A DNA stretch of 64,000 nucleotides from Xestospongia bergquistia (taxonomy: Eukaryota > Porifera > Demospongiae > Haplosclerida > Petrosiidae), in assembly GCA_963965975.1 (NCBI GenBank), contig OZ014422.1, positions 2,999,155 through 3,063,154 on the forward strand. The letters are read 5' to 3'. The first letter of the stretch is position 1. Every line of letters starts with the position of its first letter. Of this stretch, positions 1 to 45,453 are shown piece after piece. The notes below the pieces were generated by a model. That model did not search any database and was not told where the DNA came from. It saw nothing but the letters and a program-made list of their open reading frames with translations. A program made the translations under genes and the position numbers.

Positions 1-3000
1 TTAGCTTTGGTCCCTCAACTGTTTTTTCTTCATCCAACCATTTATAGTAAGCAGGTAAATCTAGCTCAGTTTCAATGTTTTTTAATACTTTCATAACATG
101 ATGGATGTTGTTAAGAATAACGCAAAGCTAAAACATTTAAGATCATAACATGCAAAGTATTGTGTACTAGTGTTATTTTACCTTGTCAGTGACTATGAAA
201 TGTCCATCTTTATCAGTATAACATTCAGGATTTATCTTATCAAACATCAGCTCAGTATAGCAAGTAGACAGTTCACACAGGTTCTAAATAGTAGGTCATT
301 TATACTATATTCACAATGATATGTACCTGAACAACTGTAACAAAATAACCTATAGATTCTTCTCTGTCTGGCCATTTTACATTATTCCAGAAGGAAATTA
401 CCTAATATAATAAAGATGATAAATATCTAAGTTAGATTTACATACTTGCACAAAGAAGGCATGAGCATCTACAGCAGAGGATGAAAAAGATGCTCTGTCT
501 GTACACTTGACAATAGTGTCTAGTTCAACAGCTTTTAACAGCTTCTCTTTAGCTTTAGATTGTGCAAGTTGTATCCACTTTGAAACAAAACGTTTGAACC
601 AAAGATGGTAGGAGATAATTTTAAGCTTATCAACTTTTTGCTTTCTTAAAAACCTAGGTATATTATTAAATGAATTTGAATACATGGAATGTTAGAATAG
701 ATAAATACATATCACTGTATAACTAAGATGTTATTTTAACAACTAATTTGTTGCTACATGTATAGAATATTATACATTTAAAAATTCATGTGAATTATTT
801 ACTCTAAGATTTATTGCTTTGTAACAATATACCATACCAAAAAAATTATAGCAAGTAACCGACATGAATTCTAGATTCCATAATAATCCATTCCATATAA
901 GATACAAATGGATTATTAAAATAACTAAATAATTTGTACATTGAATATTTGGATGAATAGTACAATCAATGAATGTGTATTCTGTGTTTAATGTGTTGGT
1001 AATGAGACTTACTCAGAATTAACATTGTTAGCAAATACAACCAGCTCTTGAACAATTTGATAAATTTCATATGTAACAAGAACAATATCTGGATTGTCTT
1101 CTTCAAATTCAAATCGACTCTCAACCTCACTATGTAGCTAAGTACAGAGTTAGAAAATGTGAAGTCAGTTAGGACTAACCAGTTTATCCAAAGAGGTGAA
1201 GAAAGGAGAGAAATAGTCCACATCTACTCTAATGAAGGATAAAATTATGGCATGAGGTTTGAGGTTTTACTTACTCCATAAAAACAGGATGGATTTTATT
1301 ATATCCTTGTTCACACTGTTTTAAACAATGAGAACACAGTGCTTTAAAGGCAACCATGTTTTCTTTAATACACTATATATAGTTAGGTAGGTGAGTTTAC
1401 AGTATAATAACACTACACTTACACTATGTGGTGGCATTAGATTTCCTGATTGTGGAACAGCAGTCTAACCAGTTAATGTCAATACTAATATAGTAACAAC
1501 ATCATTGACAGTACCTGTATAGTTGATGTCAATAGAGTTTTATAATTTAAATCTTCTGGATGTTGTCGAACTTTAAAAAGCCGAATCTGGTAAACTTCAT
1601 AGAGTACCCTTTAAATAAGATTATAATAATTACTATAAAACTTTCAATAAAAATACATGGAAATAGAAAGGTAACACAAGCTGAAATATAGTGTAGCAAC
1701 ATAATTATTAATAACATATAATCTAAGGACTGCAACATGAAGTAAATATCAGGCAATTATGTTACATCATATAAGTGTGCCCTTACTGGAGATGCTTCTG
1801 TAATTTCTTAATATCATTGTCTGACTTCAGATCAAACATATTCAAGTGATGTTTCACATGGTTAATTATATGTGAAACTAACCCTTTAAGATTTTCAATG
1901 AGAGTTAGAACCTATATAAATAAATGTCACAAATACAAGTGATTGTACCATTTAAAGTGATGTAAACAAAGTACTTAAATGTAGAAAAAGGCAGAGGGTA
2001 GTACTGTCTATATAGAGATTACCCAGAATGTCTCCTGAAATGTACTGGCAAAAAATTTAGTATCTCATCACTATAGTGATCAGAACCTCTCAATACTATG
2101 TAGTGTTTCTTTTTACAACAATACAAAAAGTGACTGAATCACAAGTTAAGAATCATAGTGTAAACTTAGTAAACACTGAATTTCTTTGATCTTTTTTGTA
2201 GTTGAGACAAAAACTATGTTGACTATAATTTCATTTAGTCACCAAGGCAACATGATTTAAACATAGCACGAGTTTGCTTCAGCAAACGTTTTGTCAGTGC
2301 AATCTACGTTGACTCTTATAAATTATATATATAAGTGCATTCTATCTGTAACTGTTTTATCATGTAGAGATGATACAAATATAATCCCTATAATCTTGTT
2401 TGCATTTTCAGCAATAGGCTAACCTTAGCTATTTCTACATTCTACCTCATTTTTAAAAAAATGACCTTTGTATATGGAAAAAAAACATACCCATGATGGA
2501 GATCCAGATGTGCCATTGGTAAAATTTTGTACTGGTGTTCCTTTGATACTTCTCTCTGAGTCAGGTATTTCAGCTTCATAGTGCTGTATATTTTGTAGTA
2601 CATCCAATAATGCAACAATATCAATAGCAGATGCTTTAGCATAGTCCAAGAGGACAGACAGCCGACTAATAATTAATAGGTGAAGTTTATACACATGATG
2701 ATCAGTTATAACATTAATAACACGTACAGTGCAGATTGTTGTAATGGAGTAATATGATGAAGAGAGGAATGTTGAGTCAACAACTTTTCAGCAATGGGTG
2801 GCAAAATGGCATTCCAATGTCTAGTATATTCTTGACTGTCCTACATTCAAACAGTCTATAAATTAATACAAAATACAATACAAACTAACTTTTTTACTTT
2901 CTGTTTCCATGATGCATTGCAGTAACTGCTTGTAATACAAGTGAACTTTATGTTCGGATTTAACCTAAAAAAATTACACAAGATAACTTCTACTCATTTA

Positions 3001-5866
3001 TACATTTATAACCTTCTTTCTTGCAATATCTAACCAGACTGTTAGTGTTCCTCGAGAATGTTTTCCAGAATGAGATAAGACATCAAATATTCTTTCTCCA
3101 CCACCAACAAGTGTATGCTAAAAATATAAAATATTACCAAATACTCCATAAAATGACCATCCACTATACATATCATGTCTATCTATATAAAGGAATGTGA
3201 ATGCCAATAATATTTTAGTATAGGGCAGTCTTAGGTAAAGAAGGAAACTTAGTTCTAACAGGTATAAGACAATTTGTCAGTGGTTGAAGCTAAAGGTAAT
3301 GTTATATGAGTGAAATTCAAATAGCCTTTTTAGAAGATTATAGTTATAGGCCATACAACAAAGAGCACCTGTAGTAAAAAGACTACTCTGCCCAGAAAAC
3401 AATTTTTTTTAGGATCAGAAAGTAATCCTCTGAATCCTTTTGATTTTTCTTTGTGAGTTTTGTCAGAGTTCCTATAATAATTCCAAAATTAAGACAATTT
3501 TACCATGTACTTACCATAATTCAATAACTAGATATTGATCTTTTGCATTGGTAATATCTCTAGATATAGTTGTTAGAACTAAGCTTTAATAGCAAATATA
3601 CTTACAGTTCAAATGTTTCGTTCCATTCTGGGTCTACCGTCTTCTCTTTTACACTAGATCTGTAGATGTTACTAATGTGTTCCTGTTCTTCCCAATCAAG
3701 TAAATTATGATGAACTATCATAGAGTCATATTGCTTTTTATCAAGGACAGCAAGTACACAACAGGGATCTAAAAATAGAATTATCTTCATTATATTGAAT
3801 TGAAATTATTTTCACACATGTACATGCACATACATATACAAAGACTTGAGCACACATACATGTATATCCTATCAGAAATATAGAATTAAGGAATAAAATT
3901 GGTTGTTAAATGTAAACAGTTATATTGCAGTAATAGTAATAGATTTATGTTTTCATTTGTCCATAATTCAAGTGATGGGACTTGCAGATGATGTTTCAAT
4001 ACCATATCAGTTAATTTTTATCACTATTGGAAAACTGGAAGAATTAATTAAAGACTATTTAAAGATAAATGAACTAACTTCCTTCAAAATAAATAATGTA
4101 GTGAATTTACAGACGGACACATATATAATGTATTTGAAATTCATGGTCACAATTCATTATTGTGTGCCATAACCTCAAACTATCACTCTGAAGTTAAAAT
4201 GACACACATTTTTTATTAGCAATGTAATGGTTTATTATTTAAGGATATCATTATTAGATTACAAAAACAAAAAGTAAAGACTATGAATCAATCTGAACAT
4301 AAAAATGATAATATGATGTAAATAATATAATTTTAGAGTATAGTTAACACGACTAGGGCATATTTAATTTAAAGTTTTGTGGTTCTCCTATTAAATGCCA
4401 TGTAACCATCATAATTTTGGATTGAAATATCCTATTGCTTATTGCAGCATAGTTTAGTATGTTTAGCTAACAGATACAAAATGATATAGAAACTATTTTA
4501 TAATCAATAGAGCTTTTTGCTACAAAATGCTCATTCCTGGTAGTGTCCATTTAGGGAAATCTATTTAATTAACAAATATTAACATGTATATTGCATGCAT
4601 TTCTGAACATGATATAGACTAATAATTAATAGGGAACAGGTTTGGACAATCCTCCAGTAGCCACTCTAACAAATTGTATGTGTATTGTGAAAGTAAAAGA
4701 TGTCATCAATTATAGTCATCACTTTTCTTTGATTTAATATCCATAATGAAACATGCACAAAACTGGTAAAGTAACATTAACTACTGTAATTGTTGATGTC
4801 TGTACACACATGAGTATTATTCAACATGTCTACATGTCAATATATTCATGTCTGTACTATGTTAATATACATACCATTAGTACTTTTTGCTTGTAGCCCA
4901 TTTGCTTTAATAACTGAAGGAAGATTGTACAACACTTATAGTCAATCTATAAACTTACGTTTACATTTCAAGGTTAGTGCTCTCTCCTATAAAATATATT
5001 TAAATATATAAAGTAGTGGGGCATGTTCTATCTTACTCTGGTAGCTGCATTTTTTCTTGCAATTTCATCAAATGAGGTAAATTTCTCTTCTGTTGTATTA
5101 AAAATCTAATGGAATTGTTAAAGTGGAACAAAAAAATGCAACACTAGTGTAGTAAATGGATTGAAATTTAAAAATTATAATTAGACTGATTGATTTATAA
5201 TTTCTTATTACTGAACAAATTCAGACACAGCAACAATACTTATTAGGTATTAATTGTAAACAAAGTTATAAAGCAATTGTTTTACCTGTTTAATATAATC
5301 AAATGTTGTCTTGTTATCCTGGTCACTATGTAACAGCTCTAGATCATAAAATAACTCGAGTGTATCACAACATACATCCTCTATCTACAAAATACACACA
5401 AAGTTAATATCTAGTATCAAAAGTACAGTATCAAGTTCTAACTATACCTAACCTGACTTGGTAACAGTTCATGGAAGGTAACATCACTACCACATAAATG
5501 ATCCTTCATACTGTCCTGATCGACCTGTAATTGAATTTGAAAGATTACAATGCTAACCAACTATTAGTGCATTTATAAAATATAAACTGAATTTAATGTC
5601 ATCTAATTCAAAAATGCTTTTGGATTACAATAATTGTTTTATCACATTTATTACATATAATATAATATAGGCCTTTATATACTTGTTCAATTGGTGATTC
5701 TTCAACAGATGAAAGTATAGTACTGTCATGATCATGATCATTTAAAAGATCTTCATTATCAAAACTGTCAAAGGGGAATATATATTATATATTTAAAACA
5801 AACAGACTTGTGAATATGATCGCCTATGTTTAGCTTCGATTGTTTTCTGAGAATCAGTTTTTTCAT
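1..5866 (-). CDS. UNC13D/BAIAP3-like protein, copy A (3' part outside window)
   Basis: Munc13-4/BAIAP3-type protein, a family that tethers and primes vesicles for SNARE-driven exocytosis at the plasma membrane. The start MKKLILRKQ is the ATG at 5864-5866 and matches copies C and E. Exons then run leftwards through the C2A domain (around 3500-3790, motif [10 protein letters not shown], first loop DPCCVLAVL) into the MUN domain (2500-2680 and on to position 1). The C-terminal C2B lies outside the window, so its type is unknown. Compared with copy D, the exon at about 1441-1470 lacks 15 bases, an in-frame loss of five residues (WILIL). I saw no clear disabling change but did not verify every splice site. 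The block A+B mirrors C+D. Family call is firm; orthology to UNC13D versus BAIAP3 is not resolved. Confidence 0.75.
713..895. repeat. Degenerate MITE-like repeat in copy A intron
   Basis: AT-rich intron segment with the words ttattttaacaact and gattccataataatcca. It matches the same intron of copy C (about 12725-12895) and resembles the better preserved palindromic element at 38045-38258. It probably entered before A and C separated. Confidence 0.4.
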
Positions 5867-6964: not shown

Positions 6965-8050
6965 TTATTTGTGAGACCGATGAAAATGAGAACTGAGTTG
7001 AAAGGAATGTCCAACATGGGTTTGTCTCTTGAATTTTTTAATACTTTTCATAAAATTGTGAGCCATTGGTTCAGTAATCCTATTCTCTAGTTCTTTAAAG
7101 GCAAGAGTGTTCTGGTAGTGAAAGAGGTTTAAATACTCTATTTTACGTTCATCTCCTTCCAGAGGTGTTGTATTACAAGGTACAAGAGTAATACCAGCCA
7201 AATCATCACTACCAAATGTATCATGATCAAACATAGCAAGAAGAAGAATAGCACCATCTTGTTTGAGTTTTGAGGGATCAGCAGTCCTAGTTATATAACA
7301 TTAATATAATAATATTATTATGTATAATTACTGTAGCGTTTTTGTCTTTACATATTTTGTAGAGATGAAAATGTTGGAGCTTATAATTCAAATGTCTTGT
7401 TGAAGATTGGATCTAATGTTTTCTTCTGCACAGTGGTCTTGAGGGCTTTGTGTTTAGTAGCAGTAAATATTGTTACTGGTAATAGGTATAGCTTGATATA
7501 AGGGTCACTTTTCCCTAAATTATTATTAGTTATATTATACTAGATTAATCAACTCACCACTACGATCTAGTCCAGGTATATGCTCAGCAAACAATACTTC
7601 AACTACTAATGCCTTCTTTGTAGAGTCATAAATATGACTTATATGAAGAACACCAAATTGATCCTTTGATTGAGCCTTCAATGTATATATAAGTATTATT
7701 GTACAAATATAATAATACCTCAATACCTGTTGTTTTACTAAGTCATGACAAAATTTCTTTATAATATCTTCTGTTGATTACACAGAGAGACTAAGATCAT
7801 CCAACAAGGTCTACAAAGAAATTTATTACATGTCATAAGCTTAGCTACTCACTTTGTAGTCCTCTGTCTCCAGTTCAGTATGTGATAATCCATTTCCATC
7901 AGCTTCAAAAAAGTCACCAAGTGTAGTTAGAGTTATCCTCAACTGCTTATAATTATGACGATTAACAGCTGATTTGTGTGACAACTTGATATCTTCTCCC
8001 TTTAAACCATTGATAACATCAAGCCATATGCCCTTCATAATACTGGTATA
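6965..8050 (-). pseudogene. UNC13D/BAIAP3-like, copy B: 5'-truncated fragment with C2B only
   Basis: Holds the last exons of a copy of the D type: the end of MUN (7841-8038), then C2B exons (about 7680-7550, 7510-7390, 7290-6965) with loop 3 DHDTFGSDDLAG and the same 17-residue basic/histidine tail as copy D. Homology with copy D stops abruptly at about 8050, just after the words cataatactggtat. An in-frame stop (TAA, complement of 7778-7780) replaces the LPTED motif seen in copy D. No N-terminal half, C2A or promoter is present, so this is a dead duplicate. It shows that the A+B block once had the same layout as C+D and then lost most of B. Confidence 0.8.
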
Positions 8051-8060
8051 CTAAGTAATG

Positions 8061-8225
8061 TTGGACAGCAAGGCCAGACTTATCAGGGTTATCGAAAACT
8101 GGTATGATACTATGCCAACAGCCATCACTTGGAAGACAATACTTGATGCAGTTGAGGGATCCATAGTGGATAATTGTGCCATGGGATTGAAGATTCGTGA
8201 ATATCTAGGAGTCCCAAGCAAGTAA
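8061..8225 (+). pseudogene. Orphan Death-domain exon
   Basis: Open stretch on the plus strand ending at TAA (8223-8225). The translation contains RVIENWYDTMPTAITW and ends KIREYLGVPSK. The spacing of WY, TW and the closing KIREYL is that of a Death-fold C-terminal half common in invertebrate Death-domain proteins. No upstream exons or start codon are evident, because the sequence to the left is truncated copy B on the opposite strand. It is probably a last exon left by the rearrangement at about 8050. The Death-domain call rests on pattern only. Confidence 0.5.
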
Positions 8226-9634: not shown

Positions 9635-12600
9635 CTATTTTTTAAAAACCAATTTCTTCATAGTTTTCATGAACTTTTGAGCCATAGGTTCAGTCATTCT
9701 GCTCTCTAGTTCTTTAAAGGCAAGAGAATGATCATAGTGAAAGAGGTTTAAATGCTGCATTTTACGTTCTCTTCCTATTAGAGGTGTTGTATTACAAGGT
9801 ACAACACATATACCAATAAAGCGACGACCAAATTTATCATGATCATACATAGCAAGAAGAAGAATAGTGTCATCTTGTTTGAGCTGTGAGGGATCAGCAG
9901 TCCTAATGATAAGTATTAAATATATATTTAATTGACAAAATGTCACTACTAACAATTCAAATGTCTCATTGAAGATTGGATCTAATGTCTGCTTCTGTAC
10001 AGTGGTCCTGAGAGATTTGTGTTTAACAGCAGTAAATATTGTTGCTGGTAGTAGGTACAGCTTGACATAAGGGTCACTTTTTCCTTATTAATATTAGTAA
10101 CAATTATATAAGATTAATCAACTTACCACTACGATTCAGTCCAGGTATATGCTCAGCAGATAATACTTCAACTATTACTGCTTTCTTTGTAGAGTCATAA
10201 ATATGACTTAAATGGAGAACACCAAATTGATCTTTTGATTGAGCCTTCAAAATATATATTTGTATAATTGTACAACTATATATATAAGTAAATAAAAATA
10301 TTTTCTAGAAATGAAGTAAATGTAGGGATTGGTAATATCAGTCTAATACAAAGAGTGCAAACAAGATAGTAGTGATGGCAATTACATCATCCTTACATAA
10401 TAGCACAGTCATAGAATGCAACAACATATAATTATTAAGTAATTTAGATAGTTACTACATATCATTACTTGCTAGTGCAATGATGTAATTGCCATCTCTA
10501 CTATCCTCTACATTTATTTCATTTTTAGAAAATATTTTACTTATTTGCTTAATTTTTTAAATGCAAGTGTTTTGATAGCCAAGAGAGGTTTCATATTCAA
10601 ACAGATTACAAAAAGTATTAATGTTCTTATATATATTTTATATTGTGATGAAGATATTATTATTAATGACTAATTAAGGAAGATAGCTAGGAGCTTAAAA
10701 TTATTCCATCATGGATGAGTTCTGAACGAACAGGATGTCCTCAGAATACAATATAAAAGTTTGTAATGATACTTTTCATATTAGTCAATGCATCATAGCT
10801 AAGCTTATAGTCACTGGGTTATCAGTTATACAATCTTAATTTTAGGTGAAAATCAAAGTAGGAAAGTCTATACTTACTGCCAGAAGAGGACTATGGTTGT
10901 AGATCTATTTTTTGTCTTCATTAAAATTAACTAATTATTTATAAAAATGGCTTTTCTAAGATAGCTCTTGATAATAAACTACTGAAATCACTACTTTTCT
11001 CTGAAGTTGGTTTCCGAAAACTTTATGGTTACTGAGTTATTGTGAGCTCTAAAACTAAGGAGGCAGATGAAAGGTGAACAAATCCAACATTTGAACAGTG
11101 ATGTCTGTGATGTTATTAACTTATAACTAAGACATGATGAAAGGATTAGCATAGAAAAAAATATAGTAAAGAATTGAAAGATTTGATCAGTTTTGAGGAC
11201 AATATTCATTGTTGTCTGCCAATACATGTCAAAGAACAATCTGTACCATCCCTATATATAGCTACATGCATATGCACTGCTTCTGTGTGCCTGATAGCAA
11301 TACTTTAGTACCTGTTGTTTTCTTAAATCATGACAGACCTTCTTTATAATATCTTCTGTTGGTAACACAGAGAGACTAAGTTTATCCAACAAGATCTACA
11401 AAGAAACTTATCATATGTAATAACTTTAGCTACTCACTTTGTAGTCCTCTGTCTCCAGTTCAGTACGTGATAATCCATTTCCATCAGCTTCAAAAAAGTC
11501 ACCAAGTGTAGTTAGGGTTATCCTCAACTGTTTATAATTATGACGATTAACAGCTGATTTGTGTGACAATTTGATATATTCTCCCTTCAATTCATTGATA
11601 ATATCAAGCCATATGTCCTTCATAATACTGGTATGAAAATAGTAACAGTATTGTATAGATATAATTATTTGTTACCTTAGGAAAATTGGAGTCAATAAAG
11701 CTTGTCCCAATTTGCCCATATTAGTAGCAATATAGTCCAATAATGTTTCTAACACCTAACACACAGTATTGATATTATAATGACATCTCCTGACTTAACT
11801 AACTTTGTCTGAAGGCATATCATCACTAGCTTCTATAATACTAGCTAAAAAAGCCAATATACTTGGTGACAACTAGAGAGACAATGTTTCTATCTCTGTA
11901 TATAATATATGTACCACACCTTTTCCTTGATCATCTTCACTATTGAATCAATTTTGTTGAAGATGTCTTTATCAGCATTATCCAAAACACCCCAAATCAA
12001 AGAACGAGCGTGTTCACTTAGTTTTGGTCCCTCAACTGTTTTTTCTTTATCCAACCATTTATAGTAAGCAGGTAAATCTAACTCAGTTTCATTGTTTTTT
12101 AATACTTGCTTAATGTAGTGGATGTTATGAAGAGTTATACAAAGCTAAAAATTTAAGATCATAACACACAGAGGATTGTGTAATAGTGCTATGTTACTTT
12201 GTCAGTGACTATGAAACGTCCATCTTTATCAGTGTAACATTCAGGATTTATCTTGTTAAACATGAGCTCAGTATAGCAAGCAGACAGTTCACACAGGTTC
12301 TAAATAGTAGGTCATTTATAATATATTCACAATGATGTGTACCTGAACAACTGTAACAAAGTAACTTATAGATTCTTCTCTGTCTGGCCACTTTACATCA
12401 TTCCAGAAGGAAATTACCTAGTATAATAAAGATGATAAATATCTAAGTTAGATTTACATACTTGCACAAAGAAGGTGTGAGCATCTACAGCAGAGGATGA
12501 AAAAGATGCTCTGTCTGTATACTTGACAATAGTGTCTAATTCAACAGCTTTTAACAGCTTCTCTTTAGCTTTAGATTGTGCAAGATGTATCCACTTTGAA

Positions 12601-15197
12601 AGAAAACGTTTGAACCAAAGATGGTAGGAAATAATTTTAAGTTTATCAACTTTTTGCTTTTTAAAAAACCTAGATGTATTATTAAATGAATTTGAGTACA
12701 TGGAATGTTAGAATGGATAAATATATACTGTAAAACTATGTTATTTTAACAACTACATGTGTGAAATATTTTGCAATCTATAATTTTTTTGAATTATTTA
12801 CTCTATAATTGTTGCTTTGCAATATTATACCAAAAAGTTTATAGTGAGTAACTGATGTGAATTTTAGATTCCATAATAATCCATCCCATATAAGATACAA
12901 ATTGATTATTACAATAACTGAATAATTTGTACATTATTATTTGGATGAATAGTACAATCAATGAATGTGTATTCTGTGTTCAATATATTGGTAATGAGAC
13001 TTACTCAGAATTAACATTGTTAGCAAATACAAACAGCTCTTGAAAAATTTGATATATTTCATATGCAACATGGACAATATCTGGATTATCTTCTTCAAAT
13101 TCAAATCGACTCTCAACCTCACTATGTAGCTAAGTACAGAGTTAGGAAATGTGAAGTTAGATAGAACTAACCAGTTCATCCAAAGAGGTGAAGAAAGGAG
13201 AGAAATAGTCCACATCTACTCTAATGAAGGATAAAAATAATATGGCTTGAGGTTTTCAGGTTTTACTTACTCCATAAAGACAGGATGGATTTTATTATAT
13301 CCTTGTTCACACTGTTTTAAACAACGAGAACACAGTGCTTCAAAGGCAAGCATATTTTCTTTGATACCCTATATATAGTTAGGTAGGTGGGTTTACAGTA
13401 TAATAACACTATACTTACACTATGTGGAGGCATTAGATTTCCTGACAATATTAATATCCATTGTGGAACAGCAATCTAACCAGTTAATGTCAATACTAAT
13501 ATAGTAACAACATCATTGACAGTACCTGTATAGCTGATGTCAATAGAGTTTTATAATTTAGATCTTCTGGACATTGTTGAACTTTAAAAAGCTGAATCTG
13601 GTAAACTTCATAGAGTACCCTTTAAATAAGATTATAATAATTACTATAAAACTTTCAATAAAGATGCATGGAAATGAAAAAGTAGCATAAGCTGAAATAT
13701 AGTGTGGCAACATAATTATTCATAACATATAATCTAAAAACTGCAACATGAAATATATACAAAGTGAAAAAATGAACTTATATTAGAGTATATAGGTGTG
13801 GCCTTACTGGAGATGTTTCTGTAATTTCTTAATTCCATTGTCTGACTTCAGATTAAAAATATTCAAGTGATCTTTCACAAGGTCTATTATATATGAAACT
13901 AAATCTTTAAGGTTTTTGATGAGAGTTAGAACCTGTATAAATAAATGTCATAAATATAACTAGTGTTTGTGCCATTTAAAGTGATATAAACAAAGTGATT
14001 AAATGTAGAAAAAGGTAAGGGGTAACATTGCCTATGTAGGGATTGCCCAGATTGTCTACTGAAATGTACTGGCAAAAAATCAAAGTATCTCATCCCTATA
14101 ACTGATAAGAACCTCTCAATACTATGTAGTGTTTCTTTCAATAACAATACTGAAGTGACTCAGTCACAAGTTAAGTATTATAGTGAAAATTTAATAAGCA
14201 TTGAATTTCTTTGATCTTCTTTGTAGTTGAGACAAAAATTATGTTGACTGTAATAATTTCATTCAGTGACTGAGGTGACAATTAAAAACAGTACTAGTTT
14301 GTTTTTATGTAAGAATTATTTTAATTGAGTGCTTCTGTAACCATTTTGTCATCACAATGTATAAAAGGGTAGGGATGTAGGGATAATACAACTGTAATCC
14401 CTACTATCTTGTTTGCATTCTTAGCAACAGGCAAACTTTAGTTATCTCTATGTTCTACTTCACTTAAAAAAAAGATTTGTGTACATGCTTAAAAGTAAAA
14501 CACATACCCATGATGAAGGTCCAGATGTACCATCAGTAAAATCCTGTACTGGTGTTCCTTTGATACTTCTCTCTGAGTCATGTAGTTCAGCTTCATAGTG
14601 CTGTATATTTTGTAGTACATCCAATAAAGCAGTTATATCAATAGCATATGCTTTATTATAGTCCAAGAGGACAGAAAGACGACTAATAATTAATGGGTGG
14701 GGTTTGTATAAATGAGGATCCAACAATGATATCAATAACACTTACAGTGCAGATTGTTGTAATGGAGTAATGTGATGATGATAGGAATGTTGGGTCAGCA
14801 ATTTTTCTGCAATGGGTGGCAAAATGGCATTCCAATGTCTAGTATATTCTTGACTGTCCTACATTCAAACAGACTCTAAACTAGGTACAAAATGCAATAC
14901 AAGCTAACTTTTTTACTTTCTTCTTCCATGATGCATTGCAGTAGCTGCTTGTAGCATAAGAGAACTTCATGTTCAGATTCAGATTTAGCCTCCTACGATT
15001 ACACAAGATAGCTTCCACTCATTTATACATTTATAACCTTCTTTCTTGCAATATCTAACCAGACTGTTAGTGTTCCTCGAGAATGTCTTCCAGAATGACA
15101 CAAGACATCAAGTGTCCTTTCTCCACCACCAACAGGGGAATGCTAAAAATACAAAATAATATCAAAAACACCATAAAAAGCGACTATCCACTATATG

Positions 15198-15237
<40 letters not shown>

Positions 15238-19407: not shown

Positions 19408-19431
19408 ACTTGGCCAAAAGTTAGGGGGGAG

Positions 19432-25972: not shown

Positions 25973-26029
<57 letters not shown>

Positions 26030-27313: not shown

Positions 27314-27354
27314 TTGATAACTCACACTGGTGACAAAAATCTAGATTCAGTAAA

Positions 27355-30300: not shown

Positions 30301-31791
30301 TAACAACTTGGGTGTGGTTACTGACAACTATAGATTCATTTATTAAAGAACAAAGAGATTCAAATATATAGCCGGAATCAAGAAAATAATACTTCCAAGT
30401 ATCCAGATATCATTGCCCGTATGCCAAAAGTAATTAATGAAGGGGTGTGGTCATTTGTGATCGATGCAGAAGCTGTAGCTTGGGATATAGAGAAGAAACA
30501 GATACTTCCATTTCAAATTCTCAGTACTAGAAAGAGAAAGGTAAAATTGATTAGTTTTAAAGATCATTTTATATCTCCTCTGTAGGATGCTAATGTTAGT
30601 GATATCAAAGTACAAGTTTGTGTGTTCCCTTTTGATCTCCTTTACATAAATGGAGAGAGTCTAGTTCGAGAGACTTTCAGAAGAAGAAGAGAATTGCTGA
30701 AATCTTCATTTAAGGAGATTGAAGGAGTAAGTTATCATTTTGCAAATTTGCATACTTTTATTGTTCACAACTTGTATCTCAGGAGTTCATGTTTGTTCAA
30801 GCCATTGACACAAATAACATTGAAGATATTCAGACCTTTATGGAAGAATCTATAAAAGGTTAGAACAATGGTTACATTCTAGTAACATACATAAATGTAA
30901 ATGGTACAACTCAATATGCTGTACCTTTGTGTATATAGGATATTGTGAAGGTTTAATGGTCAAGACACTTGACAAGGATGCTTCATATGAGATAGCAAAA
31001 CGGTCACACAACTGGTTGAAAGTAAGTTGTTTGTGATTCAAGATTATAGTCACTGTCCCTCCCAGCTCAAGAAAGATTACTTGGATGGAGTGGGAGATAC
31101 TTTGGATTTGGTAGTTGTTGGAGGATATCATGGAACAGGAAAAAGAACGGGGAAATATGGTGGATTTTTGTTGGCCTGTTTTGATCCAGAGAATGAAGAA
31201 TTTCAAGTGATTTGTAAGGTATACAACCCTCCAACTATTTCATAGCATTGGTATGACTTCCTTTGTGTATTTCCAATCTATTTTCTTGTCTCCTTTAGTC
31301 CTATATCTCTTTTCTCTATCTATAGATTGGTACTGGTTTCAAAGATGACCAATTAGATCAACACACTGATTTTTTCAATAATCACATTATTGACACACCC
31401 AAACCATACTACTCTTATAGTGATAATGTCATTCCTGATCGCTGGTTTGATGCAGTTCAAGTCTGGGAAGTCAAGACTGCAGATCTTTCTATATCACCAG
31501 TCTACCCAGCAGCTGCTGGTATTGTAAGTGTCAATGGACTTAAGTGACTGTGATCTTGTTTTATTGGAAATAGGTTGATCCTGAAAAGGGTATTTCCCTT
31601 AGATTTCCTCGTTTCTTGCGTATAAGAGATGACAAGAAACCAGAACAGGCCACAACTAGTCAACAAGTAAAATTAAAAATACTTTGTAATAATTTTGTCA
31701 TTTCCTGTAATAGGTTGCTGATTTGTATCGACAACAACAGAATACTGGTAAACAAAGTGGGGAGACCCCTGAACTTGAAGACTTTTATTAA
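27355..31791 (+). CDS. LIG1: DNA ligase 1 (ATP-dependent replicative ligase)
   Basis: Seals Okazaki fragments and repair nicks in the nucleus. By eye 21 exons give 909 codons, near the human 919. The N-terminus MPQKGILNFFSKK is a textbook PCNA-binding PIP box (Q3, I6, F9, F10), followed by an acidic/lysine-rich disordered region (27430-28539). The DNA-binding domain spans 28852-30100. The adenylation motif [10 protein letters not shown] holds the catalytic lysine (exon 30085-30286), followed by [31 protein letters not shown] and GFLLA motifs. The OB-fold ends in [20 protein letters not shown]. Exon 30334 restores the conserved [16 protein letters not shown]. An initiator tRNA gene lies antisense in the intron 28540-28851. 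Its 3' end faces RPP21, 80 bp away. Confidence 0.96.
28576..28584 (-). terminator. Pol III terminator of tRNA-iMet
   Basis: Nine A on the plus strand read as nine T on the minus strand, starting six bases past the tRNA 3' end: a strong RNA polymerase III stop. Confidence 0.8.
28591..28662 (-). tRNA. Initiator tRNA-Met (CAT)
   Basis: 72 nt on the minus strand, beginning agcagagtggcgcag and ending catcctctgcta. Anticodon CAT is the complement of 28628-28630. Eukaryotic initiator hallmarks are visible: A1:U72 closing pair, three G:C pairs at the anticodon stem, and the T-loop with atcgaaa (A54) instead of TTC. It differs from the human initiator at only two positions that I could spot. Internal A box (tggcgcagcgg) and B box (ggatcgaaacc) are intact and a T-run follows. 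It is nested antisense in a LIG1 intron. Confidence 0.96.
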
Positions 31792-31871
31792 ATACTTAGT
31801 TGGTTCATCAAAAATTTAACAAAATGTTATATTCTCTATTCTTGTGGTAATCTTATTTTAGCTCTACATGA

Positions 31872-32982: not shown

Positions 32983-34350
32983 ATGATGAGCGGCAGTTCA
33001 GTTGGACCAGTTCATGGTTCTGCCAATTTTCCAGAAGTCTCTAAATATGAAAAACTAGCTAAAGTTGGTTAAGGAACATTTGGGTAAGTCATGAACACGA
33101 AAGATCTTTTATTTGAATAAATATAAGTTATCTATAAATTAATTGAATCTTGATATATTTTTAGGGAGGTATTCAAGGCATGAGATTGCAAGACAAGTCG
33201 TCTTGTAGCTTTAAAGAAAGTATGTATGGACAACGAGAAAAAAGGGGTAAGTATAAACATTATAGTAATTCTGGCAATATTTGAATGGCCTTAAATTCTA
33301 ATTAATTTGGAATGTAACTGTATTAATTAATGTTACATTAAAGCATATTTCTATCTGCTAGGACTAGGACTCAATCCACAGTGTATATAATATCACTTGA
33401 TGTGATGACAATTTTTAGAGTTAATATAGTCATGATGTTTACTCTATGTAGTACACACGACCACATAATGTGATCTGTGGGTATCCTACCTCTTCCTATT
33501 TAAAAATACACCTGCACTTGAAAACAGACTAGTTTGCAGTGAGCATACAACACATGGATGAAGTATAGTGTAATATATTGAAATATTGTCTAATAATGAC
33601 GGTAGTTTGTGCTAACAACATGGTCTTATAATTTAATAACTAGTTATAACTTAATGAGCTAACCTATTTAGTTTCCACTAACTGTCAAATGTATTGTAAG
33701 GCACTAGACAAGTACTAATACTTACTATATTGAGGTTACTATAATTATGTACATGTTATTAATAAATTTCCTTAATATTAGTTTCTGATGACAGCATTGA
33801 GAAATACATATACTACAGCTAGTAAAACACAAAAACATCATCAATTTGGTTGAAATATGTCGTGCCAAAGGTAACCCTTACTACACACAAAGACACCATT
33901 GTTGTTATGATTACATCTTTTCTACAGCTACTCCCTATAATAGAGACAAAGGAAGTATTTACTTGGTGTTGGATTTCTGTGAACATGATTTGGCTGGTCT
34001 TCTTGAATGTAAAGAAATCCATTTCTCTCTGGGTGAAATCAAAAATATTATGCAAAAACTCTTTAATGCTCTTTCTTATATACATGGTAATAACATACTA
34101 CATCACATACTACATCTCGACATGAAGTCATATAATATTTTGATGACACGTATTCAGAGAACTGAAGCTTGCAGACTTTGGACTAGCTCGTGCATTAAAC
34201 AAAGGCCAAAATCAACATTACACTAACAGAGTAGTAACATTGTGGTATTGTCCTCCTGAACTCTTCTTGGGTGAACAAAATTATTGCCCTCCAGTTGATA
34301 TGTGGGGTGCTGGATGTATTATGGCCGAGATGCTGGCTCAAACATACTAG
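32983..34350 (+). pseudogene. CDK9-like kinase, broken duplicate with introns
   Basis: Clear match to cyclin-dependent kinase 9 (P-TEFb kinase): KYEKLAKVG then GTFG, VALKKVCMDNEKKG, INLVEICRAKGNPY, GSIYLVLDFCEHDLAGLL, LKLADFGLARA, VVTLWYCPPELFLG, DMWGAGCIMAEM. It is dead. TAA replaces the glutamine of the glycine loop (33070-33072), TGA interrupts the next exon after VFKA, and the frame shifts before IINLVEIC and again after the catalytic loop, where HRD reads HLD with a small duplication. The C-terminal lobe stops at 34348-34350. Introns with GT-AG ends persist (33084-33164, 33247-33780), so it arose by DNA duplication, not retrotransposition. An intact parent must lie elsewhere. Confidence 0.9.
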
Positions 34351-36312: not shown

Positions 36313-39300
36313 ATGAAAAAACTGAAACTACGAAAGCAATTGAAGCTAATTGTGGGAGATCATATTCACAAGTCAGTTTGTTTGAGTATTATATATATTG
36401 TTTATCCTGCTAAAAGTGATTTGTCATTTTAACTTGTTAAATTTATAACAATTTTCACATATGACTATGACACTCATTAGTTTCTATTGTGGTGATGTGG
36501 ACTAGTAAATATGTGTAAGAATAATATCTGTTATAGCCATATGCATGAAGAATCAATTTAGTATCTGTAAAATGTTTGCTAGGAAGTCATATAAACAATT
36601 AGTTGAAGTCATTAGTCTAGACAACTGTTGAAGTGAAAGTTAATTATAAATGAGGAAATGATAATTATGCATTCACATTGTATGAAGTAAACACTAGTAT
36701 CCATAAGATGAAGTCATTAGTCTAGATAACTATTGGAGTGAAAGTTAATTATAAATGAGGAAATGATAATTATGCATTCACATTGTATGAAGTAAACACT
36801 AGTATCCATAAGATGAAGTCATTAGTCTAGATAACTATTGGAGTGAAAGTTAATTATAAATGAGGAAATGATAATTATGCATTCACATTGTATGATGTCT
36901 ATTTACTAAACACTAACCATCATCACATAGAAAAAGGAAAACTGATGAGTGACATGAAACTCAAAGAACGAGTTGATGTATTAAATGGTCATCAATATTA
37001 GCAGTGTGGGTGTGTCCTTTAAAAGTTATGTATGTCTCATTTCCTTTGCCAGATTTGATAGTAAACATCTTTTAAGTGATCATGACAGTACTATACTTTC
37101 ATCTGTTGAAGGATCACCAATTGAACAAGTATATAAAGATCTAAATTATATTATATGTAATGAGAGTGGTAAAACATTTACTGTAATCCAAAAGCATTGT
37201 TGAATTTAATTACATTCTGTTTATATTTTAATTGCTTACAATTGTAATCTTATAATTTGTGTGACTGACAGGACCAGAACTATATGAGAGATCATTTATG
37301 TGGTAGTGATGTTGCCTTCCATGAACTGTTACCAAGTCAGGTCAGGTATTGTTAGAACTTGTTACTGTACAATACATTGATTGACCTTGTGTGTATCTTG
37401 TAGATAGAGGATGTATGTTGTGATACACTCGAGTTATTTTATGATCTAGAGCGACTACATAGTGATCAGGATAACAAAGCAACTTTTGATTACATTAAAC
37501 AGGTAAAGCAATTATTTTAATAATCTTGTATGCCATAAAATACCTTGTAAGTATTGTTTTTGTGTCAGAGTTTGTTCAGTAGTAGAAAATTATAAATCAA
37601 TCAGTCTGATTGCAATTTTAACCAGTTAGAAACTAGTGTTGTAATTTATTGGTTCTGCTTTAATAATTCCATTAGATTTTTAAAACAACAGAAGAAAAAT
37701 TTGCCTCATTTGATGAAATTGGAAAAAATGTAGCTACCAAAGTAAGATAGAACATATCTCAGTACTTTGTTAAGTATATTTTTATAGGAGAGAGCACTTA
37801 TCTTGAAATGTAAACGTAAGTTTATAGGTTGATTATAGTTGTGTCATATGAACAATCTTTTTTCAGTTATTAAAGCAAATGGGATACCAGCAAAAGATAC
37901 TAATAGTATGTATATTAATGCAGTACAAACATGTTGATTAATATACATAGTTGATTAATTCTTGTGTGTGTATGCCTGCTGTTACTTTGTTAGTTTACTA
38001 TGTCTATCAATATGAATACTAAAGCAAGAAAAATGGATGACTGTACTGTAAAAATTCAATTGTTATTTTAACAATTACTTTGTAGTCTACATTGATATAA
38101 TTTTTGTGAATTATTCATTGTGTAATTTCTCAGTATGTTGTACTTTTAAATGTCAACAAATTACGCAATGAGTAATTCACATAAATTCTACATTCCATAG
38201 TAACCCACTGATGTAAACTACAAAGTAATTGTTAAAATAACAATTTAATTTTTACAGTGTGTATGTACCCTATATGAAATTGATGATCATGAATGAATAA
38301 TTACATATATTTTTATATCCATTTTATGGTCAAAGACATGGCCATTAAGAGCAGTTATAACTTAAGTGAAGCAGTAATATAGACCACTTTAACCCACAGA
38401 AATAACTATATACTAACTACAAGGCCTAAGTTATACTGATAAAATAAATTGGTTGTTTAAACCAATTCATCTACATTTTGATTGTATGTGCCTCTACAAA
38501 GTGCATTGAAGTGTGTGCATGAATTACATAGTAACAGCCCTGGTCCATCACTTTATTATCATAAATGAAAACTGTACATGAAGTTTACTTTATTGCATCA
38601 AACAATTTGATTTGTACACCAACTTGTGTAGCCATATATTGGATAATCACTTTATATAGTGAAATACTGTATAGGTCAAATTTGTATATTTGCAATTTCC
38701 AATTTAGGTATAGGATTATGACTCATTTACTTTACTTATAAGCATAGTAGTCAGTCTATAAAGAGCTTATGTTAAGTATATGCTAGATCAGGATTTAGAC
38801 AATGGATTTCTTCTATTTATAATTTGACCTCCAACATGGTAAACACATGTAATTAAGCAACTATGTAAGCAGTCTTTAATGTAATGCATGCTCCTTCTAT
38901 ACAGTAACAATGCTACAAACCACATATAATGATGATATAATGATGATCTGTGATCGCAAATTTCAATGTATATATATATATATATTTAGAAAACATTTTT
39001 AAAACCTGTCCGTTTGATAACATTAAATTCACTATACATTATCCATTTTAAAGCTTTGTAAGTTAGTTCATGATCATTCATCTTTAAATGACCTTCAGCT
39101 TCCAGTTTTTCTGATGCGAATAGTGATGAGAGTTAATTGATATAGCAATGAAATATCTTGTACATGGTAGTCAGCCCTATGACTTGAAATATTGGACAAA
39201 TGAACACCCAAATCTATCACTATTACTGCAATATATCTGTTTACATTTACAACCAATTTCATTCCTTAATTTTGTGTTTCTGACAGGATATGCATGTATG

Positions 39301-42300
39301 TGTGCTCAAGTGTATGCATGTACATGTGTGAAAATAATTTCAATTCCAGTATAATGAAGATAATTCCATTTTCAGACCCTTGTTGTCTACTTGCAATTCT
39401 TGATAAAAAGCAATTTGATTTTATGGCAGTTCATGATAATTTACAAGATTTGGAAGAACAGCAACAAATTAATAACATCTACAAATCTAGTGTAAAAGAG
39501 AAAACACTAGAGCCAGAATGGAATGAAACATTTGAACTGTAAGTATAGTGACTATTAAAGCTTAGTTTTGACATCTATATATAGAGATATTACTGATCCC
39601 CAAGATCAATATCTCGTTATTGAACTATGGTAAGTACACTGTAAAATTGTCTTTACTTAAGAATTATTATAGGAACTCTGACAAAACTCGCAAAGACAAA
39701 GTGAAGGGACTCAGAAGATTACTTGCTGATCCTAAAAAAAATCCTTTTCTTGGCAGAGTAATCTTTTTGTTACAGGTACTCTCTGTTCTATTGGCATTAA
39801 CTATAATCTGCCAAAGATGAATTTTGCTTATATATATATAGTGGATAGTCGCCTTTTATGGTGTTTTTGATGTTATTTTGTATTTTTAGCATTCCCCTGT
39901 TGGTGGTGGAGAAAGAATATTTGATGTCTTATCTCATTCTGGAAAACATTCTCGAGGAACACTAATAGTCTGGTTAGATATTGCAAGAAAGAAGGTTATA
40001 AATGTATAAATGAGTGGAAGTTATCTTGTATAATTGTAGGAGGCTAAATCTGAACATGAAGTTCTCTTATGTTACAAACAGTTACTGCAATGCATCATGG
40101 AAGCAGAGAGTAAAAAAGTTAGTTTGTATTACATTTTGTACCTAATTTATAGTCTGTTTGAATGTAGGACAGTCAAGAATATACTAGACATTGGAATGCC
40201 ATTTTACCACCCGTTGCTGAAAAATTATTGACTCAACATTCCTCTCTTCATCGCATTACTCCATTACAACAATCTGCACTGTAAGTGTTATCAGTATCAT
40301 TACTTTTCCTTCATCTATATAAACTCCACCCATTAATTATTAGTCGTTTGTCTGTCCTCTTGGACTATAATAAAGCATATGGTATTGATATAACTGCTTT
40401 ATTGGATGTACTACAAAATATACAGCACTATGAAGCTGAAATACCTGACTCAGAGAGAAGTATCAAAGGAACACCAGTACAGGATTTTACTGATGGTACA
40501 TCTGGACCTCCATCATGGGTATGTGTTTTAAACATGTATGCAAGTCATTTGTTTAAAAAATGAAGCAGAATGCAGAGATCAATAGCTAAAGTTGGCCTAT
40601 TGCTAAGAATGATAAGAAGATAGTAAAGATTATAGTTGTATTAACTCTACAAAATAGAACAGCTGTAGATAGAATGGACTATATAAATATAATATATAAG
40701 AGTCAACTTAGATTGTCCTGACAAAATGGTTACTGAATCATTCAAATAATTCTTATAGCTATATATCAAGCACTATGTTTTTAACTGTGTTACTTTAGTC
40801 ACTGAGCAAAGTTACATTCAACATCATGTTAATTTTTAGTTGAGTTATCCACAACTAGAAAGATCAAAGAAATTCAATGTTTATTAAGTTTTCACTGTGA
40901 TACTTAACTTGTGACTCAGTCACTTCAGTGTTGTAGAACTCAACTCAACATAATATTGAGAGGGTTTGATCAGCTGAAGTGATTTTCATTTCACTGGATA
41001 ATCTGAGTAATCCCTACATAGGCAGTGTTATCCCCTGCCTTTTCTGCATTTTTTATATCACTTTGTTTATAATCACTTTAAGTGGCAGATACAACACACA
41101 CTTTGCAATATTTAATTATACAGGTTCTAACTCTCATTAAGAATCTTAAAGATTTAGCTTCATATATAATAAACCTTGTGAAAGATCACTTGAATATATT
41201 CAATCTGAAGTTAGATGATGACATCAAGCAATTACAGAAACACCTCCAGTAAGACCACTTCTATTTACTCTAGTACAAATGATAACAGGTTGATTTGCCA
41301 AAAATTGCCAAATCCCAAAATAAAAACCTTCACCAATTTTCTCCTCTATATGTTATAAGTATATCCTGGCATAAAATTTATGTGACAGCACTCCCTAAGA
41401 TTTTTGGACCATGTGTTATATACATGGTAATGTATATACTGTCACACTATATTACAGGTTATCATGATGTATCTTTATAAGAATATTTTTATTTGGTTTC
41501 ATGCAGCCTGATAATTGTTTTGAACCACATATTACACATCTATATATTATATAGATATTTTGGTTTGCATTACTTTATTCTATTTGTTGTATATGACATA
41601 CAGTGTAAAGGAACAAATAAAATTTAACTGTTGATACACATGACAACCAATAAAATTTATTATTGTATCTTTATTGTGAGTACTACAATGATAGATATGG
41701 CTGATAAAGCTTCAAACCTTGTAGACTACTAATTTAATATTCTGCCTTTTGATATTTTTTGTATAACTAAAAAAAATTTCCCAATGATCTAATATTTTAT
41801 CATAACATTAACATCTTCAAAAGCAATTGTAGGAAGATTTTAAATAATAATCTTGTCACAGTTATTATTATAATTTTGGTTAAAGGGTACTCTATGAAAT
41901 TTATCAGATTAAGTTTTTTAAAGCTCAACAACATCCAGATGATCTAAATTATGATCATCTATTGACATCAGCTATACAGGTACTATCAATAGTTGTTACT
42001 ATATTAGTATTTACATTAACTGGTTAGACTGCTGTTCCACAATGGATACTGACATTGTCAAGAAATCTAATGCCAGCACATAGTGTAAGTGTAGTATTTT
42101 GTAACTGTGTAAGACCTCTCTAACTATAATTACATAGGGTGTTATGGAAAACATGCTTGCCTTTAAAAAACAGTGTTCTCATTGTTTAAAACAGTGTGAA
42201 CAAGGATATAATAACATTCATCCTATCTTTATGGAGTAAGTATAAGATTACATTCCACCAATTTATCAGTGACTTTTACCTTGCTAGAGTGGGTGTGGAC

Positions 42301-45300
42301 TATTTCTCTCCTTTCTTCACCTCTTTGGATAAAGTGGTTAGTCCTACCTAACTTAACATTTCCTAACTCTGTACATAGCTACATAGTGAGGTTGAAAGTC
42401 GATTTGAATTTGAAGAAGACAATCCAGATATTATTATTGTTACATATGAAATTTATCAAATATTTCAAGAACTGTTTGTATTTGCTAACTATGTTAATTC
42501 AGAGTAAGTCTCACTACCATTGCCAACACATCCATTGGTATACTATTTAGTTCAGTTTTAGTTCATTGATCTATCCTTTCAAATAATCTACTCTTTTTTT
42601 CTCACTTAAATAGGTACTTAACAAAGCAACAAGTTACTAAGCTTGCAATTATCTCTTACCATCTGTGGTTTAATCATTTCTTTTTGAAGTGGATACATCT
42701 TGCACAATTTAAAGCCAAAGAGAGGTTGTTAAAAGCTGTTGAATTAGACACTATTGCTGAGTACACAAACAGCACATGTTTTTCATCCTCTGCTGTGGAT
42801 GCTCATGCCTTCTTTGTGCAAGTATGTAAATCTAACTTAGATATAGATTAGTACTATTAAACTAGGTAATTTCCTTCTGGAATAATGTAAAGTGGCCAGA
42901 CAGAGAACAGTCTATAGGTTACTTTATTGCAGTTGTTCAGGTAAACATCACTGTGAATATATTATAAATAATCTACTATTTAGAACCTGTGTGAACTGTC
43001 TACTTACTATGCTGAGCTGATTTTTCATAAAGTTAAACCCGAATATTACAGTGATAAAGATGGTTGTTTCGTAGTCACTGACAAAGTAAATTAAACAAAC
43101 CTCTGTGTATTGTGAACTGATATTTTTTAGCTTTGCATCACTCTTAACAACATCCATCATGTTAAGGAAGTGTTGAAAAACATAGAAACTGAGCTAGACT
43201 TACCTGGTTATTATAAATGGTTGGATGAAGACAAAACAGTTGAAGGACCAAAGTTAAGCAAACATGCTCGTACTTTGATTGTTGGTGTATTGGATAGTGC
43301 TGATGAAGACATGTTCAAAAAAATTGATTCAATAGTGAAGATCATCAAAGAAAAGGTGTGGTACATATATTATATACAGAGATAGAAACATTGTCTCTAT
43401 AGTTGTCACTAAGTATATTGGCTTTATTGCCTTGTATTATGGAAGCTAGTGATGATATGCCTTCAGACAAAGTTAGTTAAGTCAGGAGATGTCAACATAA
43501 TATCAATACTATGTGTTAGGCATTAGAGCCACTGTTGGATTATATTGCTACTAATATGGGTAAATTGGGACAAGCTTTATTGACTCCAATCTTCCTAAGG
43601 TAACAAATAATTATATATATACAGTACTGTTACTATTTTCATACCAGTATTATGAAGGACATATGGCTTGATATTATCAATGAATTGAAGGGAGAATATA
43701 TCAAATTATCACACAAATCAGCTGTTAATCATCATAATTATAAACGCTTGAGAGTAACTCTAACTACACTTGGTGACTTTTTTGAAGCTGATGGAAATGG
43801 ATTATCACGTACTGAACTGGAGACAGAGGACTACAAAGTGAGTAGCTAAAGTTATTAAATATGATAAGTTTCTTTGTAGATCTTGTTGGATAAACTAAAT
43901 CTCTCTGTGTTACCAACACAAGATGTTATAAAGAAGGTCTGTCATGATTTAAGAAAACAACAGGTACTAAAATATTGCTATCAGGCACACAGAAGCAGTG
44001 CATATGTAGCTATATATAGGGATGGTACAGATTGTTCTATGACATGTATTGACAGACAACAATGAATATTTCCCTCAAAAGTGATCAAATCTTTCAATTC
44101 TTTACTGTACTTTTTTCTATGCTAATCCTTTCATTATGTCTTAGTTATAGGTTAATAACATCACAGACATCACTGTTTAAATGTTGGATTTGTTCACCTT
44201 TCATCTGCCTCCTTAGTTTTAGAGCTCACAATAACTCAGTAACCATAAAGTTTTCGGACACCATCTTCAGAGAAAAGTAGTGATTTCATTAGTTTATTAT
44301 CAAGAGCTATCTTAGACAAGCCATTTTTATGAATAATTAGTTAATTTTAATGAAGACAAAAAATAGATCTACAACCATAGTCCTCTTCTGGCAGTAAGTA
44401 TAGACTTTCCTACTTTGATTTTCACCTAAAAATTAAGATTGTATAACTGATAACCCAGTGACTATAAGCTTAGCTATGATGCATTGACCAAAATGAAAAG
44501 TATCATTACAAACTTTTATATTGTATTCTGGAGGACATCCTGTTTGTTCAGAACTCATCCATGATGGAATAATTTTAAGCTCCTAGCTATATCTCCCTGT
44601 AACAGTGATGTCTGTGATGTTATTAACTAAGACATAATGAAAGGATTAGCATAGAAAAAAATTACTTAATAATTATATGTTGTTGCATTCTATGCCTGTG
44701 CTATTATGTAAGGATGATACAATTGCCATCTCTACTATCTTGTTTGCATTCTTTGTATTAGACTGATATTACCAATCCCTACAATTTACTTCATTTCTAG
44801 AAAAAAAATTATTTGTATATATACTTCTACAATTATACAAATATATATTTTGAAGGCTCAATCAAAAGATCAATTTGGTGTTCTTCATATAAGTCATATT
44901 TATGACTCTACAAAGAAAGCAGTAATAGTTGAAGTATTGTTTGCTGAGCATATACCTGGACTGAATCGTAATGGTAAGTTAATTATTAATCTTGTATAAT
45001 TGTTACTAATATTAATAAGGAAAAAGTGACCCTTATGTCAAGCTGTACCTACTACCAGCAACAATATTTAAACACAAATCTCTCAGGACAACTGTACAGA
45101 AGCAGACATTAGATCCAATCTTCAATGAGACATTTGAATTGTTAGTAGTGACATTTTGTCAATTAAATATATATTTAATACTTATCATTAGGACTGCTGA
45201 TCCCTCACAGCTCAAACAAGATGACACTATTCTTCTTCTTGCTATGTATGATCATGATAAATTTGGTCGTCGGTTTATTGGTATATGTGTTGTACCTTGT

Positions 45301-45453
45301 AATACAACACCTCTGATAGGAAGAGAACGTAAAATGGAGCATTTAAACCTCTTTCACTATGAACACACTCTTGCCTTTAAAGAACTAGAGAGCAGAATGA
45401 CTGAACCTATGGCTCAAAAGTTCATGAAAACTATGAAAAAATTCATTTTTTAA
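36313..45453 (+). CDS. UNC13D/BAIAP3-like protein, copy E (inverted)
   Basis: About 31 exons and roughly 1,100 residues, close to human UNC13D (1,090). Exon 1 36313-36371 (MKKLKLRKQ), exon 2 37053-37128, C2A in exons 39376-39538, 39585-39629 and 39673-39775 ([29 protein letters not shown]), MUN from 40168 to about 43960 including [15 protein letters not shown] and [14 protein letters not shown]2B is in 44854-44972, 45019-45140 and 45193-45453 with GLNRNG and DHDKFGRRFIG. Nearly identical to copy C in C2B and sharing its intron insertion, but on the opposite strand. The reading frame looks open throughout. It likely supports vesicle priming with a calcium-insensitive C2B. Confidence 0.75.
36605..36895. 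repeat. 105-bp tandem repeat, 2.8 copies
   Basis: Units start at gaagtcattagtctaga at 36605, 36710 and 36815. Copies 2 and 3 are almost identical. Located in intron 1 of copy E. Absent from copies A, C and D as far as I could see. Confidence 0.9.
38045..38258. mobile_element. Palindromic MITE in copy E intron
   Basis: Begins actgtaaaaattcaattgt and ends with the complement, aacaatttaatttttacagt; the arms pair over about 45 bp, including ttattttaacaattacttt. 214 bp, non-coding. Related decayed copies lie in other introns of copies A and C. Confidence 0.8.
41290..41840. other. Insertion in copy E intron, no gene recognised
   Basis: The intron 41249-41885 is about 450 bp longer than the same intron of copy D (186 bp). 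The extra AT-rich DNA has no clear ends or coding frame. Confidence 0.4.
44105..44664. mobile_element. Foldback-like element in copy E intron
   Basis: Left arm 44105-44177 (ttttttctatgctaatcc through aacatcacagacatcac) recurs inverted at 44602-44664. The left arm and interior are present in the same intron of copy C, but the second arm is not. Non-coding. Confidence 0.65.
44675..44812 (+). repeat. Dispersed repeat, copy E intron member
   Basis: Same family as 20205-20345 and the complement of 10300-10440, with the shared phrase tgcctgtgctattatgtaag. Confidence 0.65.

Follow-up and report, generated by a model that had tools for sequence, protein, structure and literature searches.

A tandem array of UNC13D-like genes in a demosponge genome whose copies differ in their predicted calcium ligands

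Results

A stretch of 64,000 nucleotides from contig C12 (positions 2,999,155-3,063,154; hereafter, the window) contains part of a tandem array of genes related to human UNC13D (Munc13-4), within an assembly of 146.46 Mb and 21 contigs. The whole array spans around 80 kb and has seven members, of which five are intact (Y1, Y2, C, D and E), one is broken (A) and one is a fragment (B). We consider it fairly likely that a demosponge expanded one gene of the UNC13D/BAIAP3 clade into this array and that the copies then diverged in their calcium control. This explanation is built on sequence, namely on homology over most of the length of UNC13D, a shared exon structure, five intact reading frames, mosaic similarity among copies and counts of calcium ligands. 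The family itself is known; what is new is a variant array with a calcium-ligand series. An earlier reading of the same sequence (hereafter, the original prediction) had recognized part of the array, which exceeds the window, and did not include the series of ligands.

Structure of the cluster

Five loci lie within the window, four of them on the minus strand (A, B, C and D) and one on the plus strand (E). This layout, as well as the C2A-MUN-C2B plan with shared introns, was already in the original prediction and was confirmed by spliced alignment. Copy C (9635-18679, minus strand), which was modelled by hand, is intact: its 31 exons comprise 1097 codons from ATG to TAG, all 30 introns are GT-AG, and the deduced product of 1097 amino acids has a C2A domain encoded by exons 6-10 (15725-17526) and a C2B domain encoded by exons 29-31 (9635-10244), at either end of the MUN region. 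The remaining copies were modelled with a purpose-written spliced protein-to-genome aligner, using C as the reference. Copies D (21128-27196, minus strand) and E (36313-45453, plus strand, inverted with respect to the others in the window) are likewise intact and have 31 exons; C, D and E contain around 1,100 codons each, with no stops or frameshifts, and both D and E match the 30 introns of C in position and phase.

Two further intact copies are found to the left of the window: Y2 (C12:2,977,690-2,987,349), at 12-21 kb from the window start, and Y1 (C12:2,964,377-2,972,324 as modelled), at 27-35 kb. In spliced alignments to C, each of them shows 30 introns, 29 of which are at positions of C. 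Y1 does not have the start codon of the other copies, although there is an upstream in-frame ATG, and it reaches its own stop. Additionally, Y1, D and B have a similar extra C-terminal tail of about 21 residues that is absent from C, E and Y2. The five copies originally predicted are therefore right for the window, whereas the cluster has seven members and there are at least 13 matching places elsewhere in the genome (see below); that the family has expanded in this genome stands.

The other two loci were rightly described as partial. Copy A occupies positions 1-5866 of the window (minus strand), which hold its 5' and middle parts, and continues beyond the window as far as contig position 2,998,177; it shares with C 24 of the 26 introns that could be modelled. 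A blastn comparison with C revealed a deletion of around 1.4 kb, outside the window, that takes out exons 25-28, the sequence past exon 24 resuming midway through intron 28; A is thus probably a pseudogene or a truncated gene. Copy B (6965-8050, minus strand) is a 3' fragment with the end of MUN and the C2B domain, spanning only columns 833-1092 of C; its four introns are all shared with C, it contains two internal in-frame stops and its nearest relative is D (90.4% amino acid identity).

Family assignment

Among the PDB matches listed (best 60 of 73), C has its best match in human UNC13D (PDB 9la9, chain A; E=3e-50 over residues 180-1049 of C). Y1 also matches this chain (E=6.4e-71), from residue 66 to 1064 of Y1 and from residue 84 to 1060 of the chain. 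With Pfam we detected two C2 stretches in the 1097-residue product of C, and three C2 stretches plus MUN (PF06292) in Y1, where MUN scored 36.4 bits; a 971-residue piece of human UNC13D scored 36.6 bits with the same model, for a cut-off of 24.2. The order C2-MUN-C2, the length of around 1,100 amino acids and the similarity extending beyond the C2 domains all support a family that is UNC13D/BAIAP3-like (Munc13-4 clade), as the original prediction had it. The C1 domain is a defining part of UNC13A-C (neuronal Munc13) and, because no match to it was found at E<=1 in C or Y1, these copies do not look like UNC13A-C. An identity as synaptotagmin or PKC was considered and rejected; the listed PDB matches ranking below UNC13D are C2-type. 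BAIAP3 is the sister of UNC13D and has the same domain plan; it was not among the PDB matches listed (best 60 of 73, 8 of 8 and best 60 of 69), and the comparison was made with UNC13D only.

The cluster copies share with human UNC13D (9la9_A) the C2A-MUN-C2B order without a C1 match, but the C2 domains of the six copies compared are merely 28-37% identical to those of the human protein. Also, the human genome contains one UNC13D gene, as against five intact paralogues in the sponge. A gene on contig C15 has a MUN match (32.2 bits), as does the cluster family, but it differs in having a PH-like segment beside MUN (by eye) and looks CAPS/CADPS-like, a name likewise given by eye; the C protein had no match within 30 kb around this gene. 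The Pfam search of the genome was done exon by exon, and it missed the cluster copies themselves. Relatives in collections of prokaryote and viral contigs, scanned with two short peptide patterns each, were not confirmed, which says little about other sponges.

With regard to the host, contig C21 is a mitochondrial genome of 18,997 bp that contains atp9 (by eye, L045:5785-6021) as well as 25 predicted tRNAs, all of them on one strand. We take atp9 and this tRNA set to be a demosponge signature, so that a nerveless animal, as the original prediction supposed, is very likely. The same prediction considered that a lineage-specific expansion of a vesicle-priming factor would be notable in such an animal. 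UNC13D is described as acting in granule and exosome exocytosis in non-neuronal cells (PMC6080937) and, therefore, the presence of its relatives in a nerveless animal is not in itself paradoxical.

Calcium ligands in the C2 domains

We aligned the C2 domains of the cluster copies with those of human UNC13D and with the C2A domain of synaptotagmin-1, and counted aspartates at nine ligand positions, four in C2A and five in C2B; the fifth C2A ligand is beyond an insertion and was not aligned. Human UNC13D contains DDDD in the first four positions of C2A and DDDDD in C2B. Y1 is identical at all nine positions, despite C2 identities of 34-37% with the human protein. Copy D contains DDND and DDDDD, in C2A and C2B respectively, with aspartate at eight positions out of nine; E (DNND and NDDDR) and C (TDND and NDDDR) retain five, and Y2 (NGNE and NDDDR) and A (SDND and NDNER) retain three, while the C2B of fragment B shows DDDDD. 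The copies also differ in loop 1 of C2A, which is three residues longer in Y1 than in the other five. By this count the intact copies have diverged in their predicted calcium-ligand content, forming a graded series Y1 > D > C, E > Y2.

The changes involve residues that have been mutated in human UNC13D. Double mutation D127N+D133N, in C2A, is reported to inhibit the calcium-dependent SNARE interaction, and D941N+D947N, in C2B, to prevent calcium-stimulated membrane binding (PMC6080937). By our own count, in which the chain numbering is shifted by 28 throughout, these four aspartates map to ligand positions of loop 1, and the positions of D127, D133 or D941 are altered in several sponge copies. 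C, E, Y2 and A all contain asparagine at the position of D941, and all four keep D947. Likewise, asparagine occupies the position of D127 in Y2 and that of D133 in E. The human mutants are, however, double mutants, and none of the sponge copies reproduces the exact pair.

We infer from these residues that the array may encode a mix of calcium-regulated and calcium-insensitive primers. All five intact copies would be expressed, functional and under selection at present, each product priming or tethering secretory vesicles. By analogy with UNC13D, the MUN rod would promote SNARE assembly, while the C2 domains would attach it to SNAREs and membrane. Attachment would follow calcium in Y1 and, through its C2B, in D; in C, E and Y2, where ligands are lost, it would be weaker or calcium-independent, and these proteins could be active at resting calcium, or could be competitors of the copies that are triggered. 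The sponge would then have primers that depend on calcium to different degrees, with a division of labour among them. The degenerate copies elsewhere in the genome look like by-products.

History of the copies and mosaic structure of copy E

Copies C, E, Y2 and A group together with ultrafast-bootstrap values of 97 for the N-terminus plus C2A and 98 for C2B, and with a moderate value of 89 for the whole protein. Intron 28 measures 892-1,357 bp and carries a dispersed repeat in C, E and Y2, has left a remnant in A, and is only 51-54 bp in D, Y1 and B. Within the window, it extends for 1,067 bp in C (10245-11311, minus strand) and is similarly large in E (43964-44855, plus strand), where it bears the same repeat. 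The intron insertion that the original prediction saw as shared by C and E is thus real, but it is not exclusive to them, being found in Y2 and partly in A, and its repeat has many matches across the genome.

The original prediction also considered E closest to C by C2B sequence. This is right (95.2% amino acid identity; synonymous divergence, dS, of 0.069); in the MUN core, E is more like D. At sites differing between C and D, E is like C in 128 out of 161 for columns 1-285 and in 55 out of 64 for columns 927-1097, but only in 32 out of 93 for columns 451-795; in other words, the ends of E are C-like and its middle is D-like. The clustering of these sites was not reached in any of 5,000 shuffles when all sites were used, and had p=0.04 with silent sites. 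The all-site test was significant in the seven comparisons made, including those without a suspected exchange, and is not specific; differing constraint along the gene therefore contributes to it. With silent sites, clustering was below 0.05 in three of the seven (E against C/D, 0.040; E against C/Y1, 0.0016; A against C/D, 0.031), while Y2 gave 0.13 both against C/D and against C/Y1. Gene conversion replacing the MUN core of E fits these patterns, although it is not proven.

More tentatively, and as a reading to which we give somewhat less than even chances, the cluster might be a natural series of calcium-sensor loss, in which duplicates of a single priming factor, some with all their calcium ligands and others poor in them, work side by side, and in which at least one copy has had its MUN core gene-converted while the C2 ends stay distinct. 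If so, its members would be natural counterparts of the human UNC13D D127N/D133N and D941N/D947N mutants.

Divergence and selection

Values of dS were 0.18-0.32 in the ten pairs among Y1, Y2, C, D and E. The ratio of nonsynonymous to synonymous divergence (dN/dS) was 0.34-0.43 in all ten, with bootstrap upper limits of 0.44-0.51 in the six pairs tested. It was lower, 0.25-0.28, for the MUNb segment of C compared with those of D, E, Y1 and Y2, and ranged from 0.30 to 0.52 for the C2B of the C/E/Y2 group. Among intact copies, dN is lower in the MUN core than in the C2A domain. Broken copies were paired as well and, in 11 of their 21 pairs, dN/dS was 0.66-1.21. These figures are best read as a family that has been under selection for much of its history; for constraint on each intact copy at present, the intact frames are stronger evidence than dN/dS.

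Several results weigh against an array of functional copies with diverging calcium control. In the other ten pairs of broken copies, those of L052 or L055 with another copy, dN/dS was 0.41-0.59, near the range of the intact ones, and it was as low as 0.39-0.48 in the 15 comparisons of the broken copies L042, L053 and L054 with the five intact copies. Besides, pairwise dN/dS averages over time and is no proof of constraint today for each intact copy. The ligand changes do not appear clearly faster than their surroundings, with C2A identities to Y1 of just 65-77% (69% for C), and the remaining aspartates could still bind calcium. As to the history of the copies, the C group is missing from the MUN tree, where E is placed with Y1 (60) and D (79), and support is poor (42-48) for how Y1 and D are placed with respect to that group. 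Lastly, C, D and E had no Pfam MUN match at E<=1; two of these three matched weakly a PATROL1-like model, with a best E of 0.002.

Degenerate copies elsewhere in the genome

Copies were counted by searching the genome with a 2.1 kb MUN segment of a degenerate copy, which returned 27 rows corresponding to 20 places; these counts are lower bounds. The places beyond the cluster, at least 13, include nine on C12 (3.38-4.12 Mb), two on C7, one on C13 and a piece of 520 bp on C1. Seven of these 13 copies were read and all contain in-frame stops, accompanied by frameshifts in six. They also have lesions in common, such as a stop near column 465 of C in six of the seven and another at column 964 in five. 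Their long DNA matches are 91.5-99.5% identical, introns included, and a short internal repeat is 70-75% identical. For instance, the copies at 3.38 and 3.79 Mb show 99.5% identity across 8.3 kb, and the copy at 3.63 Mb has search scores nearly equal to those of the first.

The simplest reading is that one already broken segment, bearing repeats (transposable elements), was copied as DNA with its introns. A retrocopy origin was rejected for the copies read, which keep their introns (11-15 matched introns in the seven). We also considered the gene as cargo of a transposon, since the similarity among dispersed copies extends past the gene; what was tested was the repeat of intron 15, which is found also on contigs without a detected gene copy, and segmental duplication is a simpler reading than transposition.

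The nine UNC13D-like segments at 3.38-4.12 Mb of C12 (e.g. L052, L055, L053 and L056) are in both orientations within 0.75 Mb in the middle of the contig, and the four that were read are broken. Two of the segments that are 99.5% identical over 8.3 kb are mutually inverted. This region could be a pericentromeric zone of segmental duplication or an assembly duplication. On C13, a peptide resembling a reverse transcriptase of the long interspersed nuclear element type (by eye, at around 2,843,400, in L043, C13:2833500-2843499) adjoins a degenerate copy.

Alternative explanations

It could be argued that only one or two copies work, Y1 and perhaps D, and that the duplicates C, E and Y2 are young and on their way to becoming pseudogenes, in which the loss of ligands is early decay. 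Decay is indeed common in this family, as seen in A, in B and in all seven dispersed copies that were read; the low dN/dS of broken against intact copies means that working copies cannot be distinguished from those that died recently by the low values of intact pairs. The values for C2B in the C/E/Y2 group, up to 0.52, go in the same direction, and ligand loss parallels the general divergence of the C2 domains. We nevertheless consider this explanation unlikely, given that five copies, at dS of up to 0.32, each retain around 1,100 codons and 30 introns without damage, and given the low dN/dS of MUNb in C. Moreover, three intact copies have the same C2B pattern, N,D,D,D,R, which could also be due to common descent or exchange.

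Slightly more doubtful is that the genes work in a process different from calcium-linked exocytosis, for instance constitutive tethering or the recycling of endosomes, for which the ligand changes would be neutral. BAIAP3 is reported to have a role in endosome recycling, and our data do not tell UNC13D and BAIAP3 apart; the lower dN of the MUN core than of C2A among intact copies also suits such a role. However, the conservation in Y1 of the nine alignable ligands, at such low C2 identity to human UNC13D, points to a calcium role in the ancestor.

Finally, it is very improbable that there are in fact fewer genes, counted more than once as haplotypes or as assembly duplicates, a source of error that the original prediction had itself raised: although the nearly identical dispersed copies at 3.38, 3.79 and 3.63 Mb could be assembly duplicates, those of the cluster are in series on one contig, with one inverted, their long DNA matches range from about 73% to 94% identity, and haplotype duplication is unlikely because the intact copies differ by dS of 0.18-0.32.

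Significance of the array

An array of UNC13D-like genes diverging in their calcium control, if borne out, would bear on the open question of how regulated secretion was tuned before nervous systems. The sponge copies differ at residues that make human UNC13D calcium-dependent, so that one can test in which secretory cells priming is triggered and in which it is not. Looking for just one sponge UNC13D orthologue could, likewise, overlook paralogues with a different calcium control. If most copies were silent, the array would be an ordinary tandem expansion. Gene expansions are reported from sponges also for SRCR receptors (PMC10855680), but those are receptors and not an intracellular trafficking factor. 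A description of a UNC13D expansion in sponges was not found in titles or opening abstracts of the open-licence papers listed by our searches, nor did these return any paper dealing together with munc13-4, porifera and evolution.

Neighbouring genes and other observations

A DNA-ligase gene, LIG1-like by eye, lies between D and E, head to head with D (27395-31819, plus strand); the Pfam match (PF01068) is at 30011-30346 and its extent was drawn by eye from open reading frames. Between this gene and E, positions 33801-34226 contain part of a protein kinase (Pkinase match of 54 bits; CDK-like by eye) whose catalytic loop reads as disturbed; it is possibly a broken gene.

The rest of the window, from 46186 to 64000, contains ordinary housekeeping genes. 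Pfam matches are to a UbiA transferase at 47556 (COX10-like by eye), INTS15 at 48321 (minus strand), a VHS domain at 52493 (a weak match below the cut-off) and a GID4/VID24-type gene at 60351. Two open reading frames without a Pfam match, at 61245-63791, form a MARF1-like gene recognized by eye only. Around 43 kb past the end of the window, a C2 hit at C12:3106346 (L003) corresponds to a gene that looks PKC-like by eye and has segments of C1 type, C2 and kinase. Elsewhere in the nuclear genome, contig C6 contains partial COX1-like pieces at 3154917-3155898 and 3199148-3200446, which are likely mitochondrial insertions.

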